A stretch of 22,468 bases of DNA. Origin: a virus. Positions 7,540 to 21,074 of the stretch are shown in pieces. The notes beneath the pieces are model-generated. The model did no database searches, was not told where the DNA came from, and worked only from the letters and a program-made list of their open reading frames with translations. Position numbers and translations under genes: made by a program. Numbering within the stretch: position 1 is the first letter of the stretch; every line of letters begins with the position of its first letter. The stretch is from IMG/VR virus record IMGVR_UViG_3300027730_000158, positions 1 through 22,468 of that record; one strand, written 5' to 3'.

Positions 7540-7583
7540 AAATAATTTGTTGCATTAATTTCAAAAAGTTGTATGACGCGTTA

Positions 7584-8213
7584 ATGAATAAACTTTTAGT
7601 ACATAAACATTTAATCGTAAGAGCAGAAGCGGTAAGTCCTCCTATGGACGAGGAGTTTCTTCGGCGTTGGTTAGAAAAGTTTATTTTTGGAATTGGTATG
7701 AAAGTTATGTTAGGACCATACGTGAAGTACTCTAACATGGAAGGTAATCGTGGTATTACAGGTGCAGCGATAATAGAAACCTCTCATATAGTTATGCATG
7801 TTTGGGACGAACCAACTCCAGCATTACTACAATTTGATGTTTATTCTTGTGGTGAGTTTAGTCCAGAAGAAATATGTGAAAAGATTAAAAAAGATTTTAA
7901 TACAACAAAAATAGAATATAAATTTTTAGATCGCGAACATGATCTACAAGAAATACATACCTTAACATATACAGATCCAATAGTTAAAAATTATGAAAAT
8001 AAAGAAATAGAAAAGAAAAATAATATATTAATGAAGAGTAGAAAAGAAGTTGAAATTAATGGTAATGGAACTTCTGGTTATGTTATTAAAGAAGGTATTC
8101 ACAAAGGAACAGTTCTTGGTCATATTAAAAGAGAAAAATCAAATATAGATAATAACAATAACATTAAAAATTCATCAAATAAAAATGAAGATTATGATGA
8201 ATTAGGTTATTGA
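7584..8213 (+). CDS. speD: SpeD-like pyruvoyl-dependent decarboxylase
   Basis: 209 residues from the ATG at 7584; an in-frame TTG at 7569 exists but neither has a Shine-Dalgarno. Residues 60-91 match the core of the S-adenosylmethionine decarboxylase fold: ETSHIVMH then FDVYSCG, giving Ser67 (pyruvoyl-forming), His72 and Cys89. Self-cleavage would fall between Thr66 and Ser67, where human and Thermotoga enzymes have Glu-Ser. The loop between the motifs is two residues longer than usual and the usual HTWPE is HVWDE. Residues about 140-209 are an unusual low-complexity Asn/Lys-rich extension. Spermidine synthesis uses this enzyme to make decarboxylated SAM; published work shows some pelagiphage SpeD homologues are instead arginine or ornithine decarboxylases. 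Which substrate applies here cannot be read from the sequence. Confidence 0.85.
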   Translation: MNKLLVHKHLIVRAEAVSPPMDEEFLRRWLEKFIFGIGMKVMLGPYVKYSNMEGNRGITGAAIIETSHIVMHVWDEPTPALLQFDVYSCGEFSPEEICEKIKKDFNTTKIEYKFLDREHDLQEIHTLTYTDPIVKNYENKEIEKKNNILMKSRKEVEINGNGTSGYVIKEGIHKGTVLGHIKREKSNIDNNNNIKNSSNKNEDYDELGY

Positions 8214-8237: not shown

Positions 8238-8295
8238 TCTCCTAGACTGCATCATGTGGATGGGTCAATTAACTTGCTTAACAAAGGAGATAATT

Positions 8296-8718
8296 ATGAC
8301 AAACCTAGAAGTTTTCAATAATTTAAGCAAACAATTATTCAATGGATCAACAAAGTTTTTTGATGATTCTTTTGAAAGTATTTTTGACACGTGGTCAAAA
8401 GCACAATCATTTCCATTCTATAACGTAGTAAAATACTCAAAAGGTAAATACGGTTTAGAAATCGGTTTAGCTGGATACAATAAAGAGAATATACTTGTAG
8501 AAGTTAAAGATGGTATCTTAACAATAGAAGGAAAAGTAGAAGATAAAAATGTAGACTATGTACAAAAAGGTCTTGCATTTAGAAAATTTTTCAAACAGTT
8601 TGAACTTGCTAAAGATATAGTAATTGACGAAGCTGAAATGAAAGATGGCCTATTAAAAATTAAACTTGGTTTTAAAGAACCAAAAGAAGTTGAAGGCATT
8701 AAAGTAGACGTAAAATAA
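8296..8718 (+). CDS. hsp20: Small heat-shock protein, Hsp20/IbpA family
   Basis: 140 residues from the ATG at 8296, chosen over the upstream in-frame ATG at 8254 because AAAGGAGA lies at 8284-8290, six or so bases before 8296, and because the extra upstream residues are not Hsp20-like. The alpha-crystallin domain spans about 38-125: FYNVVKYSKGKYGLEIGLAGY, ENILVEVKDGILTIEGK, a KGLAFRKFFKQFEL segment that matches the IbpA R-x-F-x-x-x-F pattern, and MKDGLLKIKL. A short I-x-V motif (IKV, 135-137), used by sHSPs for oligomerisation, lies near the C-terminus. The product would be an ATP-independent chaperone. Hsp20 genes are common in marine phages, where a role in virion assembly or host stress is presumed. 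It has the best ribosome site in this region. Confidence 0.9.
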   Translation: MTNLEVFNNLSKQLFNGSTKFFDDSFESIFDTWSKAQSFPFYNVVKYSKGKYGLEIGLAGYNKENILVEVKDGILTIEGKVEDKNVDYVQKGLAFRKFFKQFELAKDIVIDEAEMKDGLLKIKLGFKEPKEVEGIKVDVK

Positions 8719-12087: not shown

Positions 12088-13626
12088 ATGAAAGAAAAAT
12101 TTAAAGAAATATTTACTGGCTTTAAAACAGCTTATGGTCAGTATCAAAAAGGTGAGCGCGGAGAAAATGGAAAGCAAAAAGGAAAAGCATTTATTGTTAG
12201 AAAAGAAGTTGTTGATAAACTATGGGAAGATCATCTTAATGGTGTTGATCCTGCTCTTGGTATTATTCCTATTAATGAAGATAACAACTGTAAGTGGGGT
12301 TGTATTGATGTTGATCAGTATAATCTTAATCATGCTCAATTAATTAAAAAGATAAGAGATTTAAAACTTCCACTTATAGTATTTAGATCAAAGTCTGGTG
12401 GAGCACATATATTTTTATTTACTAAAGAATTCATAACTGCATCATTGATGCAGTCTACACTTAAAAAGATTTCAGATGCATTAGGATATCAAGGAGTTGA
12501 GATATTCCCTAAACAAACTGAAATACTTGTGGAACGTGGGGACACAGGTAATTTTTTAAATCTACCCTACCATAACCAAACCAAAGGATTAAGATATGCG
12601 TTCGACGATAATGGCTCCGCTGTATCACTTGAGGAATTTTATAAGCTCTATGATATTTATGCTTGCAGCAGGGAAGAAGTTGAGAAGATTCAAATCAAAG
12701 AAGAGAAGATAGAAGAAGCATTTAAAGATGGGCCTCCATGTTTAAATAGATTAGCTCGCGACGGCTTTGGCGAAGGATCTAGGAATAATGCATTGTTTAA
12801 TATCGCCATATATTTTAAACAATCTGATCCAGATTTTTGGCAAGATAAAGTCGTTGCGGCTAACTTAAATTACATGAATCCACCATTACCTAATAGTGAA
12901 GTACAACAGTTATTAAAATCAATTGGTAGAAAAGGTTATGACAAATACAGATGTAAACTTCCACCTATTGTAGATGTTTGTAATGCATCATTGTGTAGAA
13001 CTAAAAAGTTTGGTGTAGGTTTAGATGAAGAGAGTATGCCTTCTTTAAATAACTTAATAAAATATAATTCTAATCCACCACAGTACTTTTTAAATGTAGG
13101 AGAAGGAGATGAGGAAAAAAGAATAGAATTAAAAACAGAACATTTAGCAAATCCAGTTATGTTCTCTATTGCAATACTTGAAAAAGCAGATCTTGTTATA
13201 CCTAAACTTAAAGATAAAGATTGGAGAGAGTTTTATTTAAAACCATTAATAGATAAAATGCAAACAGTAGAACCTTTAGAATCGTTAGATCCAATGAATC
13301 AGATAACATCTTTATTACAAGATTGGACTACAAATAGACAGAATGCAAGAACGATGGATGATATATTTAATAAACTTCCATACACAGATGACAGAAGAGA
13401 ATTTACATACTTTAGAATGGAAGACTTTTTTAATTTCTGCAAAAAGAATCATTGGGAAATGGATAAGGCAAAGACAGGTAACTTATTAAAACAATTGAAA
13501 ACTATATTTATAGAAGAAGTTAGAATGAAGATTAAAGGTCAAGAACCTAGATTAGTTAAGATTAAAACAATGAAGAAGATAGACACAACAATATCACAAG
13601 TTAAATATCACGAGGAACATTTTTAA
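12088..13626 (+). CDS. Archaeo-eukaryotic-type (AEP) DNA primase
   Basis: 512 residues. AEP catalytic motifs are visible: CIDVDQY (Asp74 and Asp76, first metal motif), FRSKSGGAHIFLF (99-111, with Ser-Gly-Gly-x-His107) and VEIFPKQ (137-143), followed by GNFLNLPYH (154-162). The SGxxH, FPxQ and GNxxxLP pattern matches AEP primases of the TOTE-associated type. From about 227 comes GEGSRNNALFNIAIYFK and NLNYMNPPLPNSEVQQLLKSI, a helical unit like PriCT-type primase C-terminal domains. The remainder (about 300-512) is not recognised and may bind DNA or a partner. It would make primers for the family-A polymerase. Its TAA shares a base with the ATG of the UvrD-like helicase, so the two are made together. 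No ribosome site is visible before the ATG. Confidence 0.85.
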   Translation: MKEKFKEIFTGFKTAYGQYQKGERGENGKQKGKAFIVRKEVVDKLWEDHLNGVDPALGIIPINEDNNCKWGCIDVDQYNLNHAQLIKKIRDLKLPLIVFRSKSGGAHIFLFTKEFITASLMQSTLKKISDALGYQGVEIFPKQTEILVERGDTGNFLNLPYHNQTKGLRYAFDDNGSAVSLEEFYKLYDIYACSREEVEKIQIKEEKIEEAFKDGPPCLNRLARDGFGEGSRNNALFNIAIYFKQSDPDFWQDKVVAANLNYMNPPLPNSEVQQLLKSIGRKGYDKYRCKLPPIVDVCNASLCRTKKFGVGLDEESMPSLNNLIKYNSNPPQYFLNVGEGDEEKRIELKTEHLANPVMFSIAILEKADLVIPKLKDKDWREFYLKPLIDKMQTVEPLESLDPMNQITSLLQDWTTNRQNARTMDDIFNKLPYTDDRREFTYFRMEDFFNFCKKNHWEMDKAKTGNLLKQLKTIFIEEVRMKIKGQEPRLVKIKTMKKIDTTISQVKYHEEHF

Positions 13627-15134
13627 TGAGAACAATAATATTAGGACCACCAGGAACAGGAAAGACTACAACATTATTAAACTTGGTTGATGAATTTATA
13701 AAAAGTGGAACACGACCACAGGAGATAGGTTATTTTTCTTTTACAAAGAAAGCAGCAAGAGAAGCAGCAACAAGAGCTTCTGAAAAATTTGGATTAAGTA
13801 TAGAACATGATTTAATATATTTTAAAACACTTCATTCTTTAGCATTTAAAATGTTAAGTATGACTAAAGATAGAATGATGAGCCCAGAAGATTACAAAGA
13901 GTTTGGGATTAAATGCAATATACCAATAAAGACTGCATCTTATTCTGATGAGAATGGTATCTTCAATTCAGATAATGAATACTTAACTATCATTAATACA
14001 GCTAGAATTAAAAAAATAGATCTAATGGATTGTTATGATTTAAGAAACAATTTATTAGATATAGAAAGAGATACTTTATTTTTGTTAGATCAAGAATTAA
14101 AAAGATATAAGAAAGAAAAAGGATTAAAAGATTATACTGATTTAATAGAAGAGTTTGTTGAGAGAGATTTATCACCAAAGTTTAAAGTATTATTCATAGA
14201 TGAAGCACAAGATTTATCACATTTACAGTGGGAAATGGTCAAATCTATATGGAAAAACGCAGAAAAAACATACATTGCAGGGGATGATGATCAAGCTATA
14301 TTTAAATGGGCTGGGGCCGATGTAGATCACTTTATAGCGATGAAAGATGAGGTGGACGAGATTAAGATACTTAATCAATCTTATCGTATTCCTGGTGGTC
14401 CTATACATGAATTATCACAAAGAATTATATCAAGAATTAAGAATAGATATGAAAAAGACTATAAACCACGTGAAGAAACAGGCATTTTAAAATATCATAC
14501 AGATATTACACAGTTGGATATGTCTAAAGGAGAATGGACAGTTCTTGCATCAGCTAATTATTTTTTAGATGGTGTAAAAGAATTATGTGAATTACAGGGT
14601 TGGTACTATCAATACAAAGGATTTAACTCTATTAAATTAGAATTATTAGTGGCTTTAAGTAATTGGGAAGATTTTAGAAATGGTATGCCTTTAAATTATT
14701 TACAAATTAAAAATATATACAAATATCTTGGAGCTTATGTTGCACCACAATATAGAGATGCTAAAACATTAAAAGTTGAAGAAAGTTATTTAATAAATGA
14801 TTGTATGCAAAAACATGGTTTACTTACAAATGAAGTATGGTATAAGTCATTTGAAGGTGTTGATACAATTACAGAAAATTATATTCGTAATATGAGAGCA
14901 AATGGTGAGAAGATAAATAAAACTCCTAGAATTCTTATGTCTACAATCCACTCATTCAAAGGTGGTGAAAGAGATAATATTTGTATTCTAACAGATTTAA
15001 CAGCAGCAGCTATAAGACAAAATGAATATGATCCAGATGAATTACACAGATTATATTATACTGCTTGCACAAGAGCTAAAAAAGAACTTCACATAATAGA
15101 ACCAAGAGATTTCAACAAGGCATATTTGATATGA
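13626..15134 (+). CDS. UvrD/Rep-like superfamily 1A DNA helicase
   Basis: 502 residues, shorter than cellular UvrD (about 700) but with all main SF1A motifs: Walker A GPPGTGKT (7-14), Ia SFTKKAAREA (38-47), II DEAQD (192-196), III GDDDQAIFKWAG (219-230), IV QSYR (251-254), V STIHSFKGGE (439-448) and VI YTACTRAKKEL (478-488). Such helicases unwind DNA 3'-5'. Because no DnaB or T7 gp4-like ring helicase is visible, this protein, coupled by TAATG to the primase, is the best candidate for fork unwinding alongside the primase; that is inference. Its stop overlaps an ATG (ATGA at 15131) that opens the 45-codon frame described separately. Confidence 0.93.
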   Translation: MRTIILGPPGTGKTTTLLNLVDEFIKSGTRPQEIGYFSFTKKAAREAATRASEKFGLSIEHDLIYFKTLHSLAFKMLSMTKDRMMSPEDYKEFGIKCNIPIKTASYSDENGIFNSDNEYLTIINTARIKKIDLMDCYDLRNNLLDIERDTLFLLDQELKRYKKEKGLKDYTDLIEEFVERDLSPKFKVLFIDEAQDLSHLQWEMVKSIWKNAEKTYIAGDDDQAIFKWAGADVDHFIAMKDEVDEIKILNQSYRIPGGPIHELSQRIISRIKNRYEKDYKPREETGILKYHTDITQLDMSKGEWTVLASANYFLDGVKELCELQGWYYQYKGFNSIKLELLVALSNWEDFRNGMPLNYLQIKNIYKYLGAYVAPQYRDAKTLKVEESYLINDCMQKHGLLTNEVWYKSFEGVDTITENYIRNMRANGEKINKTPRILMSTIHSFKGGERDNICILTDLTAAAIRQNEYDPDELHRLYYTACTRAKKELHIIEPRDFNKAYLI

Positions 15135-15268
15135 TGTTACAGAATGGGATAGAGAGAAGGCATTTGGGGAGAGTGGTAGCTTCTTGCATCGGCAAAGTTG
15201 GTTCAGGTCTTTCGATTCCCATGTTTTTTTTACCTGTTAAACCAACAACTACCACAATAAAAATATGA
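15131..15268 (+). CDS. Possible 45-residue gene bridging helicase and DUF3310
   Basis: An open frame of 45 codons starts at ATG 15131, overlapping the helicase stop as ATGA, and ends at TGA 15266-15268, overlapping the DUF3310 start as ATGA. This is the coupling arrangement used throughout the window, which argues for a real gene. Against it, the codons (GGG, GTG, TGC, ATC, GGC, TCG, CCC) are unlike neighbouring genes, the peptide (GRVVASCIGKVGSGLSIP near the middle) matches nothing I recognise, and the same bases form a predicted RNA structure. Coding and structure may coexist. Confidence 0.3.
   Translation: MMLQNGIERRHLGRVVASCIGKVGSGLSIPMFFLPVKPTTTTIKI
15144..15255 (+). ncRNA. Predicted structured RNA leader upstream of DUF3310-polA
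   Basis: Three pairings are exact: GTGGTAG (15173-15179) with CTACCAC (15249-15255); TTGC (15184-15187) with GCAA (15192-15195) around ATCG; and GTTGGTTCAGGT (15197-15208) with ACCTG-TTA-AACCAAC (15232-15246), leaving only a TTA bulge. Together they form a closed three-way arrangement. The large loop holds a T8 run (15224-15231) and TCCCAT (15217-15222), which is complementary to ATGGGA (15144-15149) upstream, allowing a pseudoknot or an alternative fold. The 3' strand of the outer stem ends nine bases before the DUF3310 ATG, where a ribosome would bind, so folding could control translation of DUF3310 and the coupled polymerase. It matches no RNA family I know. Confidence 0.4.
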
Positions 15269-15483
15269 GCAATAAAACATTCTTTAGACAAGTAGGTGGT
15301 AAACATTATAAACAAATGGTAATACAACCATCTGTATTTATTAATGAAAACAATTTACCTTTTGCAGAAGGCAATGCAATTAAATACATTTGTCGTCATA
15401 GATTAAAAGGTAAGAAGGAAGATATATTAAAAGCAATTCATTATTTAGAAATGATTTTAGAAAGAGATTATAAAGATAAATGA
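15265..15483 (+). CDS. DUF3310 family protein
   Basis: 72 residues. The whole length matches the DUF3310 pattern: QVGGKHYKQMVIQPSVFI (9-26), EGNAIKYICRHRLKG (35-49) and DILKAIHYLEMIL (53-65). The domain occurs in many phages and is found at the C-terminus of T7 gp1.7, a nucleotide kinase, so a link to nucleotide metabolism is suspected but unproven for the stand-alone form. No Shine-Dalgarno precedes the ATG; instead the upstream bases pair into the predicted RNA structure. Its TGA overlaps the polymerase ATG (ATGA at 15480), so the two are coupled. Confidence 0.88.
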   Translation: MSNKTFFRQVGGKHYKQMVIQPSVFINENNLPFAEGNAIKYICRHRLKGKKEDILKAIHYLEMILERDYKDK

Positions 15484-17342
15484 CACGAACCTTTCAACAA
15501 CCTTTATTTGTTCCGGAAACGGAATGGGTAATGCCGGAAGAATTAAAAGATTTACGCGGTCATAAAGAAATAGCTGTGGATCTTGAAACATATGATCCTT
15601 ATTTAACTGAACTTGGATCGGGGAACGTAATTAAAAATGGTAAGATAGTTGGTGTTGCTGTAGCTGTAGAAGGTTGGTCAGGTTATTATCCGTTTGGTCA
15701 TCATCTTGGTGGTAATATGGATGAGAAATTAGTTTTAAATTGGTTACAAGATTTATTTAAACAAGATGCTACATTTATATTTCATAATGCAATTTATGAT
15801 GTGTGTTGGTTAAGATCTTATGGAATAGAAATTAAAGGTAGAATTGTAGATACAATGATAGCTGCATCTTTAGTTAATGAAAATAGATTAAGTTATAGAT
15901 TAGATACACTAGCAAAAGAATATTGTGGTTTAGGTAAAGATGAAAAAGTTTTAAACGAAGCAGCGAAAGAATATGGAATCAATCCTAAAAAAGATTTATG
16001 GAAACTTCCATCTATGTTTGTTGGCCAGTACGCAGAAAGAGATGCAGAAGCTACATTAAAACTTTGGCAACGTATGAAAATAGAATTAGAAAATGAACAA
16101 GCATGGGATGTTTTTAATTTAGAAACAAAATTATTTCCTTGCCTTGTAGACATGAGATTCAAAGGAGTAAGAGTTGATTTAGAAAAAGCAGAAAAAATTA
16201 AGAATAAATTAGTAGAAGAAGAAAAGAAATTATTGTTAAAAATCAATAAGTTAACAGGAGTTAATGTAGAATTATGGGCCGCAGCATCTATTGCAAAGGC
16301 ATTTGATGTACTTAAACTTCCATATGATAAAACAGAAAAAACAGGAGCTCCAAGTTTTACAAGAAACTTTTTAGCAAATCATCCTCATGAACTTGCACAA
16401 TCAATTGCAAACGCAAGAGAGATAAATAAAGCGCACACAACTTTTATAGACACAATTACAAAACATTCTTTCAAAGGTAGAATACATGCGGAGATAAATC
16501 AAATACGATCTGATGATGGTGGAACTGTTACTGGAAGATTTTCAATGTCTAATCCAAACCTACAACAGATTCCGGTAAGACATAAAGAATTAGGTCCATT
16601 GATTAGATCTATATTTATTCCAGAAGAAAATTGTAAATGGGGAGTATTTGATTATTCACAACAAGAACCAAGAATACTAGTTCATTACGCAATCCTACAA
16701 AATTTAGAAGGTGTTGATGAAATTGCAAAAGCATATGAATCAGGAGAAGCAGACTTTCATGCAAGTGTTGCAAAGATGGCAGGGATTGAAAGATCGCAAG
16801 CAAAAACAATTAATCTTGGATTAATGTATGGTATGGGTAAAAATAAATTAATGGCTGAACTAGGTTTAATGAAAGATGATGCTGAAAAATTAATTAGACA
16901 ATATCACACTAAAGCTCCTTTTGTTAAGAAGAGTATGGATAATACAACAAGGAAAGCAGAGAGAGATGGAAGAATTAGAACACTAGGTGGTAGAATTTGT
17001 AGGTTTGATCTTTGGCAACCAATTGAATTTGGTGTCAATACTCCACTTCCACTTGAACAAGCTAAAAAGAAATATGGAGATTTTTTAAAAAGAGCATTTA
17101 CTTATAAAGCTTTAAACAAATTAATACAGGGATCTGCTGCAGATATGACTAAAAAATCTATGGTAGCTTTGTATGAAAATGGAATTATACCACATATGCA
17201 AATACATGACGAAGTAGATATATCTGTTGATTCTGAAGAAACAAAGAATAAAATAATAGAAATTATGGAAAATGCAGTTAAATTAAAAATACCAAATAAA
17301 GTAGATTGTGAACTAGGAGATAATTGGGGTGATATTAAATAA
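15480..17342 (+). CDS. polA: Family-A DNA polymerase with 3'-5' exonuclease
   Basis: 620 residues, typical for a phage family-A polymerase without a 5'-3' exonuclease domain. Proofreading motifs are intact: Exo I DLETYDP (Asp34, Glu36), Exo II HNAIYD (Asn103, Asp107), Exo III YAERD (Tyr184, Asp188). Polymerase motifs: TGRFSMSNPNLQQIP (351-365), motif A FDYSQQEPR (Asp391), motif B RSQAKTINLGLMYG (Arg438, Lys442, Tyr450), motif C HDEVD (576-580, Asp577). The residue equivalent to E. coli Phe762 is Leu446, a variant reported to be common in marine viral polymerases and linked in the literature to replication style. It is the main replicative polymerase of the phage and last of the coupled helicase-DUF3310-polymerase run. 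Confidence 0.96.
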   Translation: MTRTFQQPLFVPETEWVMPEELKDLRGHKEIAVDLETYDPYLTELGSGNVIKNGKIVGVAVAVEGWSGYYPFGHHLGGNMDEKLVLNWLQDLFKQDATFIFHNAIYDVCWLRSYGIEIKGRIVDTMIAASLVNENRLSYRLDTLAKEYCGLGKDEKVLNEAAKEYGINPKKDLWKLPSMFVGQYAERDAEATLKLWQRMKIELENEQAWDVFNLETKLFPCLVDMRFKGVRVDLEKAEKIKNKLVEEEKKLLLKINKLTGVNVELWAAASIAKAFDVLKLPYDKTEKTGAPSFTRNFLANHPHELAQSIANAREINKAHTTFIDTITKHSFKGRIHAEINQIRSDDGGTVTGRFSMSNPNLQQIPVRHKELGPLIRSIFIPEENCKWGVFDYSQQEPRILVHYAILQNLEGVDEIAKAYESGEADFHASVAKMAGIERSQAKTINLGLMYGMGKNKLMAELGLMKDDAEKLIRQYHTKAPFVKKSMDNTTRKAERDGRIRTLGGRICRFDLWQPIEFGVNTPLPLEQAKKKYGDFLKRAFTYKALNKLIQGSAADMTKKSMVALYENGIIPHMQIHDEVDISVDSEETKNKIIEIMENAVKLKIPNKVDCELGDNWGDIK

Positions 17343-20332: not shown

Positions 20333-20574
20333 GAAAAAATAAAAAAAATAAAGAGCTAGAACTTGAAATGATCTATGCAGAATTGTTTGATAAGATGGTT
20401 GAATTAGTTTTAAGAACCAATGAACCACAGATGGTTGCATCTACGATGATGGCACAATCTTTAAGACTATATAAAACTGTATTTAAACATCCTGGTGAAT
20501 TTAGAGAAGTTATTAATACTGTTTTAAAACAATCTGAAAATATAGAACCTTACAATCACAACACATTACATTAA
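20329..20574 (+). CDS. Small helical protein of unknown function
   Basis: 81 residues, coupled to the nuclease upstream by ATGA and to the HNH-like gene downstream by TAATG. After a Lys/Asn-rich start it is almost wholly helical: ELELEMIYAELFDKMVELVL, then QMVASTMMAQSLRLYKTVF and FREVINTVLKQSE. No motif is recognised. The helical repeats suggest a small adaptor or dimerising protein. Confidence 0.6.
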   Translation: MRKNKKNKELELEMIYAELFDKMVELVLRTNEPQMVASTMMAQSLRLYKTVFKHPGEFREVINTVLKQSENIEPYNHNTLH

Positions 20575-21074
20575 TGAAAGAAAAAAAATGCACCAAATGT
20601 TTAATTGTAAAACCTAAATCCGAATTTACTAAAGATTGTTGGAAAAAAAATGGAATAAGAAGTAATTGCAAAAAATGTGATTATATTAGAAAAAGTAAAT
20701 TTTTATCAACTGAAAATGGTTTTTTACAATCTATTTATCGTAATATGGTAAGTAGAAAAGAAGCAAGCGATGATGGAAAAGACAGAGGAAAAGTTTATGC
20801 GGTTGAATTTACATATAAACAACTAATAAAAAAATGGGAAGAACATAAATTAAAATATGGACAAAATTGTATCTACACAAATGAACCTATTTTTCATAAA
20901 AGAAATAGAGAACAAATAAGAGGAAATCAAATTTCAATTGATCGTTTAGATAATAATAAGCCATATACTATTGATAATATTGTTTTTTGTTCTTCACGAG
21001 CTAATTGGATTAAAGGTCAAGTAACCATTAATATGTGTAAAAAAATATTAGAAATATATGAAACACAATCCTAA
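20574..21074 (+). CDS. HNH-like endonuclease, divergent
   Basis: 166 residues. The N-terminus has a zinc ribbon (Cys6, Cys9, Cys32, Cys35: CTKC ... CKKC) typical of phage HNH proteins. The C-terminal part carries CIYTNEPIF (99-107) and SIDRLDNNKPYTIDNIVFC (121-139) then SRANWIKG, the layout of HNH proteins with a Ser-Leu/Ile-Asp-Arg-x-Asp-Asn core. The position usually taken by the first catalytic His is Arg124, so activity is uncertain. Free-standing HNH genes in phages are often mobile homing endonucleases. Its last 17 bases overlap the exonuclease gene, unusual for a recent insertion. Confidence 0.7.
   Translation: MKEKKCTKCLIVKPKSEFTKDCWKKNGIRSNCKKCDYIRKSKFLSTENGFLQSIYRNMVSRKEASDDGKDRGKVYAVEFTYKQLIKKWEEHKLKYGQNCIYTNEPIFHKRNREQIRGNQISIDRLDNNKPYTIDNIVFCSSRANWIKGQVTINMCKKILEIYETQS

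Follow-up and report, generated by a model that had tools for sequence, protein, structure and literature searches.

A compact, pseudoknotted RNA family of variable genomic position in viruses related to HTVC023P-type pelagiphages

The window analysed here (the whole 22,468-nucleotide stretch of the virus record) carries on its + strand a gene for a UvrD/REP-like helicase (13626-15134, stop codon at 15132-15134; Pfam PF00580), followed by genes for a DUF3310 protein (15265-15483; PF11753) and DNA polymerase A (15480-17342; PF00476). The question raised by this locus is what occupies the gap between the helicase and DUF3310 genes, both replication genes. An initial annotation had proposed a structured RNA that controls polA by autoregulation or in response to a ligand. 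Our comparison bore out a structured RNA that is conserved and pseudoknotted, and spoke against the control of polA. The gap holds one copy of this RNA, about 120 nt long and on the + strand (15137-15255, ends approximate), running from a conserved TTACAG to a conserved CTACCAC. The covariance model R1, which has the window sequence in its training set, matched 15131-15255 with 114.3 bits.

The pairings read from the window at the outset (7, 4 and 12 bp, the last with a 3-base bulge, and ATGGGA with TCCCAT) were all present. When the selected interval 15174-15255 was folded alone, the nested fold proposed earlier was recovered at -20.9 kcal/mol (z -3.2), and none of 200 shuffles was as good. 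Longer intervals with flanks gave z-scores of +0.1 to +0.8 and preferred another fold under nested-only folding. Because nested-only folding cannot hold pseudoknots, these whole-interval z-scores were uninformative. The folding energies were indecisive, and we therefore turned to comparison with relatives.

A 20-mer taken from the 3’ region of the RNA, GTTAAACCAACAACTACCAC, matched 45 viral contigs, many of them at quite different loci, with the whole architecture present. With sequence patterns and R1, the family was found in at least about 160 IMG/VR contigs, which are fragments of uncultured viruses. Intact copies scored 74-118 bits with R1, and scores were lower only where a contig end cut the copy. 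For the training sequences a high score is built in; 22 contigs found later, with patterns that did not include helix d (described below), scored 93-110 bits. Many matches of the first loose pattern proved on inspection to be unrelated sequence and were dropped. The strict exact pattern had no match in 84,980 prokaryote species genomes, a type of scan that would miss divergent members. The single prokaryote match of the loose pattern, in a Microthrix MAG (L359), was unrecognised by R1 and was put down to chance. Used as blastn queries, four divergent members and the interval from the window gave nothing beyond short chance matches in 50,697 phage records.

Three annotated phages were closest to the window: 023Pt_psg01, HTVC027P and HTVC023P, with PolA identities of 76%, 56% and 53%, respectively. 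The RNA was not found by cmsearch in these three, a set without a positive control. The RNA is accessory, because these complete relatives do without it, and the viruses that carry it are relatives of HTVC023P-type pelagiphages.

Forty proposed base pairs were scored in an alignment of 44 divergent sequences (A1). Pairing was present in 88.3% of cells, and 26 of the 40 pairs were changed on both sides. The covariation score was 0.361, against 0.180 +/- 0.008 for shuffles and 0.09-0.15 for slid controls; relatedness can inflate the shuffle comparison, and the slid controls, which keep relatedness, gave the same contrast. Compensatory changes supported the three nested stems of the initial annotation (helices b, c and d).

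The strands follow each other 5’ to 3’ as a, e, b, e’, c, c’, d, a’, d’, b’, all on the + strand of the window. Helix e pairs GGAG (15168-15171) with CTTC (15180-15183), with 95.5% of cells paired and changes on both sides in four of five pairs. This hairpin, GGAG[A-GUGGUAG]CUUC in the RNA, had been missed earlier, and its loop pairs with the 3’ end of the RNA: GTGGTAG (15173-15179) and CTACCAC (15249-15255) form helix b (99.4% paired, both-side changes in five of seven pairs), making an H-type pseudoknot with a first loop of one base. Hairpin c (TTGC-ATCG-GCAA, 15184-15195) has its arms at 15184-15187 and 15192-15195, and was 93.7% paired with both-side changes in four of five pairs. Helix d joins GTTGGTTCAGGT (15197-15208) to a 3’ strand at 15232-15246, which carries the bulge TTA at 15237-15239; in the window GTTGGTT-CAGGT pairs with ACCTG-[TTA]-AACCAAC.

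Helix a links the 5’ end of the RNA to the apical loop of helix d and forms a second pseudoknot, its 3’ strand lying at 15209-15222. The lower part (ATGGGA, 15144-15149) pairs with 15217-15222. This pairing, which had been offered as either a pseudoknot or a competing fold, covaries and is a true pseudoknot. The upper part (GAGAG, 15152-15156, with 15209-15213) also covaries but was the weakest, with 63% of cells paired; it shifts register with bulges in A1 and is the least regular. Helices a, b and e probably form simultaneously, as their joint conservation suggests.

Helix d with its UUA bulge was near-invariant. It was paired in 100% of cells, and GTTAAAC was invariant in A1, partly owing to selection by the search patterns. 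The early patterns contained helix d, so it was re-examined in sequences retrieved via other parts of the RNA. There its only variants were G-U and compensatory ones compatible with pairing (L366 and L370). UUA bulge apart, few unpaired bases were universally conserved. In helices b-e, G-U pairs outnumbered A-C combinations by 120 to 5, indicating selection on the sense (+) strand as RNA. The element is almost certainly a genuine family of sense-strand RNAs. In one subfamily of UvrD-linked copies (L283-L357), an extra hairpin was observed 5’ of the RNA, its pairing kept while its sequence varies, as in TTTATATAC-GAAA-GTATATAAA and TTTACATAC-TAAC-GTATGTAAA.

At the gathering threshold of Rfam 15 the window gave no match, and permissive Rfam 15 scans of the window interval and ten member loci returned sub-threshold matches only, none of them convincing, in agreement with the earlier statement that no described class matches this RNA. 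ARAGORN recognised no cloverleaf and found no tRNA or tmRNA. Two segments of the RNA, AGUGGUAG and GGUUCG, are reminiscent of the D-loop and T-arm of tRNAs; both covary with partners on the 3’ side within another fold, and tRNA mimicry was rejected on that ground. Orphan structured RNA classes have been described from bacteria, phages and metagenomes, for example a set of 104 candidates (PMC2864571). The new RNA resembles them in being structured and discovered by comparative genomics, but it lies outside the families held in Rfam 15, is small and single-copy, varies in position and was found here in virus contigs only. Like the HEARO and omega RNAs, which are mobile and associated with HNH proteins (PMC9755519), it is structured, relocates as one unit and sometimes lies near HNH genes; unlike them, it is shorter and has no Rfam match. 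Pfam searches of selected neighbours revealed no large IscB/TnpB-like protein beside the RNA in the contexts inspected, and the neighbours were at most small HNH or endonuclease-VII-like proteins. No paper linking HEARO to HNH and ATGA was found, the literature covered on this phage group mentioned no noncoding RNA in its main text, and a search for pelagiphages with ncRNA gave nothing relevant; an earlier description elsewhere is possible. The RNA family and its fold are considered new; structured RNAs in general are already known from phages.

About 150 related viral loci were retrieved through PolA and the helicase. Close relatives, with helicases at least 79% identical, fell into two sets: the DUF3310 start was either at -4 from the helicase stop or at +130 to +150. 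Of the 61 distinct junctions examined, 46 were empty, 10 had the RNA, and 5 had an unrelated insert resembling a small-protein gene. At the empty junctions, the helicase and DUF3310 genes overlapped directly at ATGA; where the RNA was present, the gaps measured 130, 131, 132, 133, 149 or 150 bases. Two relatives (L095 and L096) differed by clean presence or absence of 136 bp between flanks 96.6% and 94.4% identical, and another (L091) was without the RNA between flanks 95% and 92% identical to those of the window. The unrelated insert, of 135 bp, was observed at the ATGA junction in L116, L121, L126, L134, L138, L024, L031 and L028, indicating that the junction accepts different cassettes. Short proteins like that of the junction insert (cluster L286_d1, 52 aa) were also found directly behind the RNA at other sites, and extra inserts of about 80 bp occurred between DUF3310 and polA in L093-L096, L137, L142 and L150.

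Across the virus group, 76 contexts of the RNA were sampled. A gene on the same strand ended within 50 bases 5’ of the RNA in 73 of them; in the remaining three, gene calling may have failed. The RNA followed a UvrD-like helicase gene in 46 contexts and a SNF2 helicase gene, either immediately or after one intervening small gene, in 16. All but one of these 16 copies faced a convergent gene, such as those for peptidase M15, Hsp20 or AdoMetDC. The other 14 copies were elsewhere, some of them close to a PD-(D/E)XK exonuclease gene or to genes for HNH or endonuclease-VII-like proteins. HNH proteins and others were among the products of the genes in front, besides the two helicases. No terminator or promoter was found near the RNA above chance. 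In L209 and L226, the product of the gene directly 3’ of the RNA is 238 aa long and contains a sigma-70 region 4 domain (PF04545). The window itself encodes an AdoMet decarboxylase (7569-8213; PF02675) and Hsp20 (8254-8718; PF00011) beside its SNF2 helicase, which are possible auxiliary metabolic genes.

Eighteen records with the RNA, ranging up to 67 kb, each had exactly one copy. Thirteen related records chosen for lacking the RNA at the helicase had no copy elsewhere in these fragments. UvrD helicase, SNF2 helicase and PolA were encoded together in all 15 RNA-bearing records tested (in G007 the SNF2 match is a contig-edge piece only), which places them in one virus group. In these 15 records, the neighbour of the RNA was UvrD in six, SNF2 in six and neither in three. 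The RNAs of L202 and L239 were 91.5% identical, and their flanks were unrelated. On such sequence comparisons, the RNA is inherited and moved as a unit.

A leader, riboswitch or operator of the DUF3310-polA genes was the role first considered for the RNA. The 3’ stem ends 9-26 bases 5’ of the next start codon in the window and many relatives, and there is a precedent in the translational operator of T4 gene 43, where gp43 binds its own mRNA leader. Both are RNA structures near a phage DNA polymerase gene, but the new RNA is far larger, pseudoknotted and mostly behind helicase or other genes, with no downstream gene for some copies. The proposal that the stem stands in place of a ribosome site does not extend to all relatives: in several (e.g. 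L153, L201 and L208), a spacer behind the stem has its own SD-like sequence before the ATG. The 46 close relatives with an empty junction keep both the helicase and DUF3310 genes, and the genes between the RNA and polA are variable. A leader would precede the gene it controls in most members, whereas 16 of the 76 copies lie behind SNF2 and 14 elsewhere. The SNF2-linked copies mostly face a convergent gene, away from polA and with no downstream target, and no other copy lies near PolA in those records or in group members with the RNA at further sites. A polA leader would need to stay before polA and a riboswitch needs a downstream target, so the function should be independent of what follows the RNA. 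Control of polA is largely refuted by the SNF2-linked copies, and we consider it quite improbable.

Other readings can be weighed on the same observations. The RNA could be a cis-acting 3’-UTR element, in which the knotted structure stabilises the upstream mRNA, either by stopping 3’ exonucleases or by guiding RNase processing. Its compact, pseudoknotted form and the same-strand stop codon directly in front in 73 of 76 contexts, operon ends facing a convergent gene included, would agree with this, but the gene in front varies, the usual helicase genes are without the RNA in many relatives, and tight gene packing alone accounts for the adjacency; we rank it second, as a tentative alternative. 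An unlikely third is a selfish RNA cassette of no benefit to the phage, moved for example by neighbouring homing endonucleases. Relocation as a unit, the clean filled and empty sites, and copies adjoining HNH or endonuclease-VII-like genes would suit such a cassette, whereas the restriction to one copy per record, the absence of an adjoining endonuclease from most UvrD- or SNF2-linked copies, and SNF2 sites without consistent target duplication argue against it. Nor does the RNA lie at the HNH-like gene of the window (20574-21074), which encodes a protein with zinc-finger cysteines and a putative HNH-like motif (SIDRLDNNKPYTIDNIVF) directly 5’ of the PD-(D/E)XK exonuclease gene. Small ribozymes of known kinds are also present in phages, and the size, pseudoknotted compactness and near-invariant core would be compatible with a self-cleaving ribozyme of new fold; with no Rfam ribozyme matched and few conserved unpaired bases beyond the UUA bulge, this seems very improbable. 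Finally, an ORF of 45 aa (15131-15268) fills the gap in the window exactly, and other relatives have at the same junction another cassette of about that size with a small ORF, while an origin or other signal read in the DNA would be compatible with a single movable copy. The gap lengths, however, break the frame, and the ORF had no Pfam match, on which grounds it was rejected as a conserved gene; a conserved frame with synonymous change only, which would have pointed to coding, was not seen. An RNA is favoured over both by the covariation, the excess of G-U over A-C and the orientation, which follows that of transcription, and we regard a small protein gene or DNA signal as extremely improbable.

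The reading that we prefer, with a probability of about 0.5, is a position-independent RNA acting in trans. It is favoured because of the covariation of the fold (helices b, c, d and e with pseudoknot a), the sense-strand bias, the single copy in each RNA-bearing record, the variable neighbours and the clean presence or absence. Fold, strand, copy number and variable position were observed as expected of a stand-alone noncoding RNA, from which we infer the activity in trans. The RNA is probably encoded by a free-standing RNA gene, and it probably does not serve as a switch controlling the DNA polymerase next to it. Such a gene would be a compact cassette right behind a stop codon, co-oriented and presumably co-transcribed with the gene in front. 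The transcript would fold into a rigid, doubly pseudoknotted unit. A partner from phage or host is presumably bound by the bulged helix that hardly varies (GUUGGUU-CG / CG-UUA-AACCAAC), which is the likeliest contact site. The RNA would act in trans during infection, whichever operon carries it. Against this trans-acting role, the constant place behind a stop codon would also suit an element acting in cis on the upstream mRNA, and complete relatives manage without the RNA.

As a compact, strongly constrained, single-copy RNA without a fixed neighbour, this family gives a concrete candidate for a role of RNA during infection. The working covariance model, the well-defined boundaries and the natural pairs with and without the RNA make it directly testable. 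It also suggests that in tightly packed phage genomes small RNA genes may be gained, lost and moved in the same way as protein cassettes.
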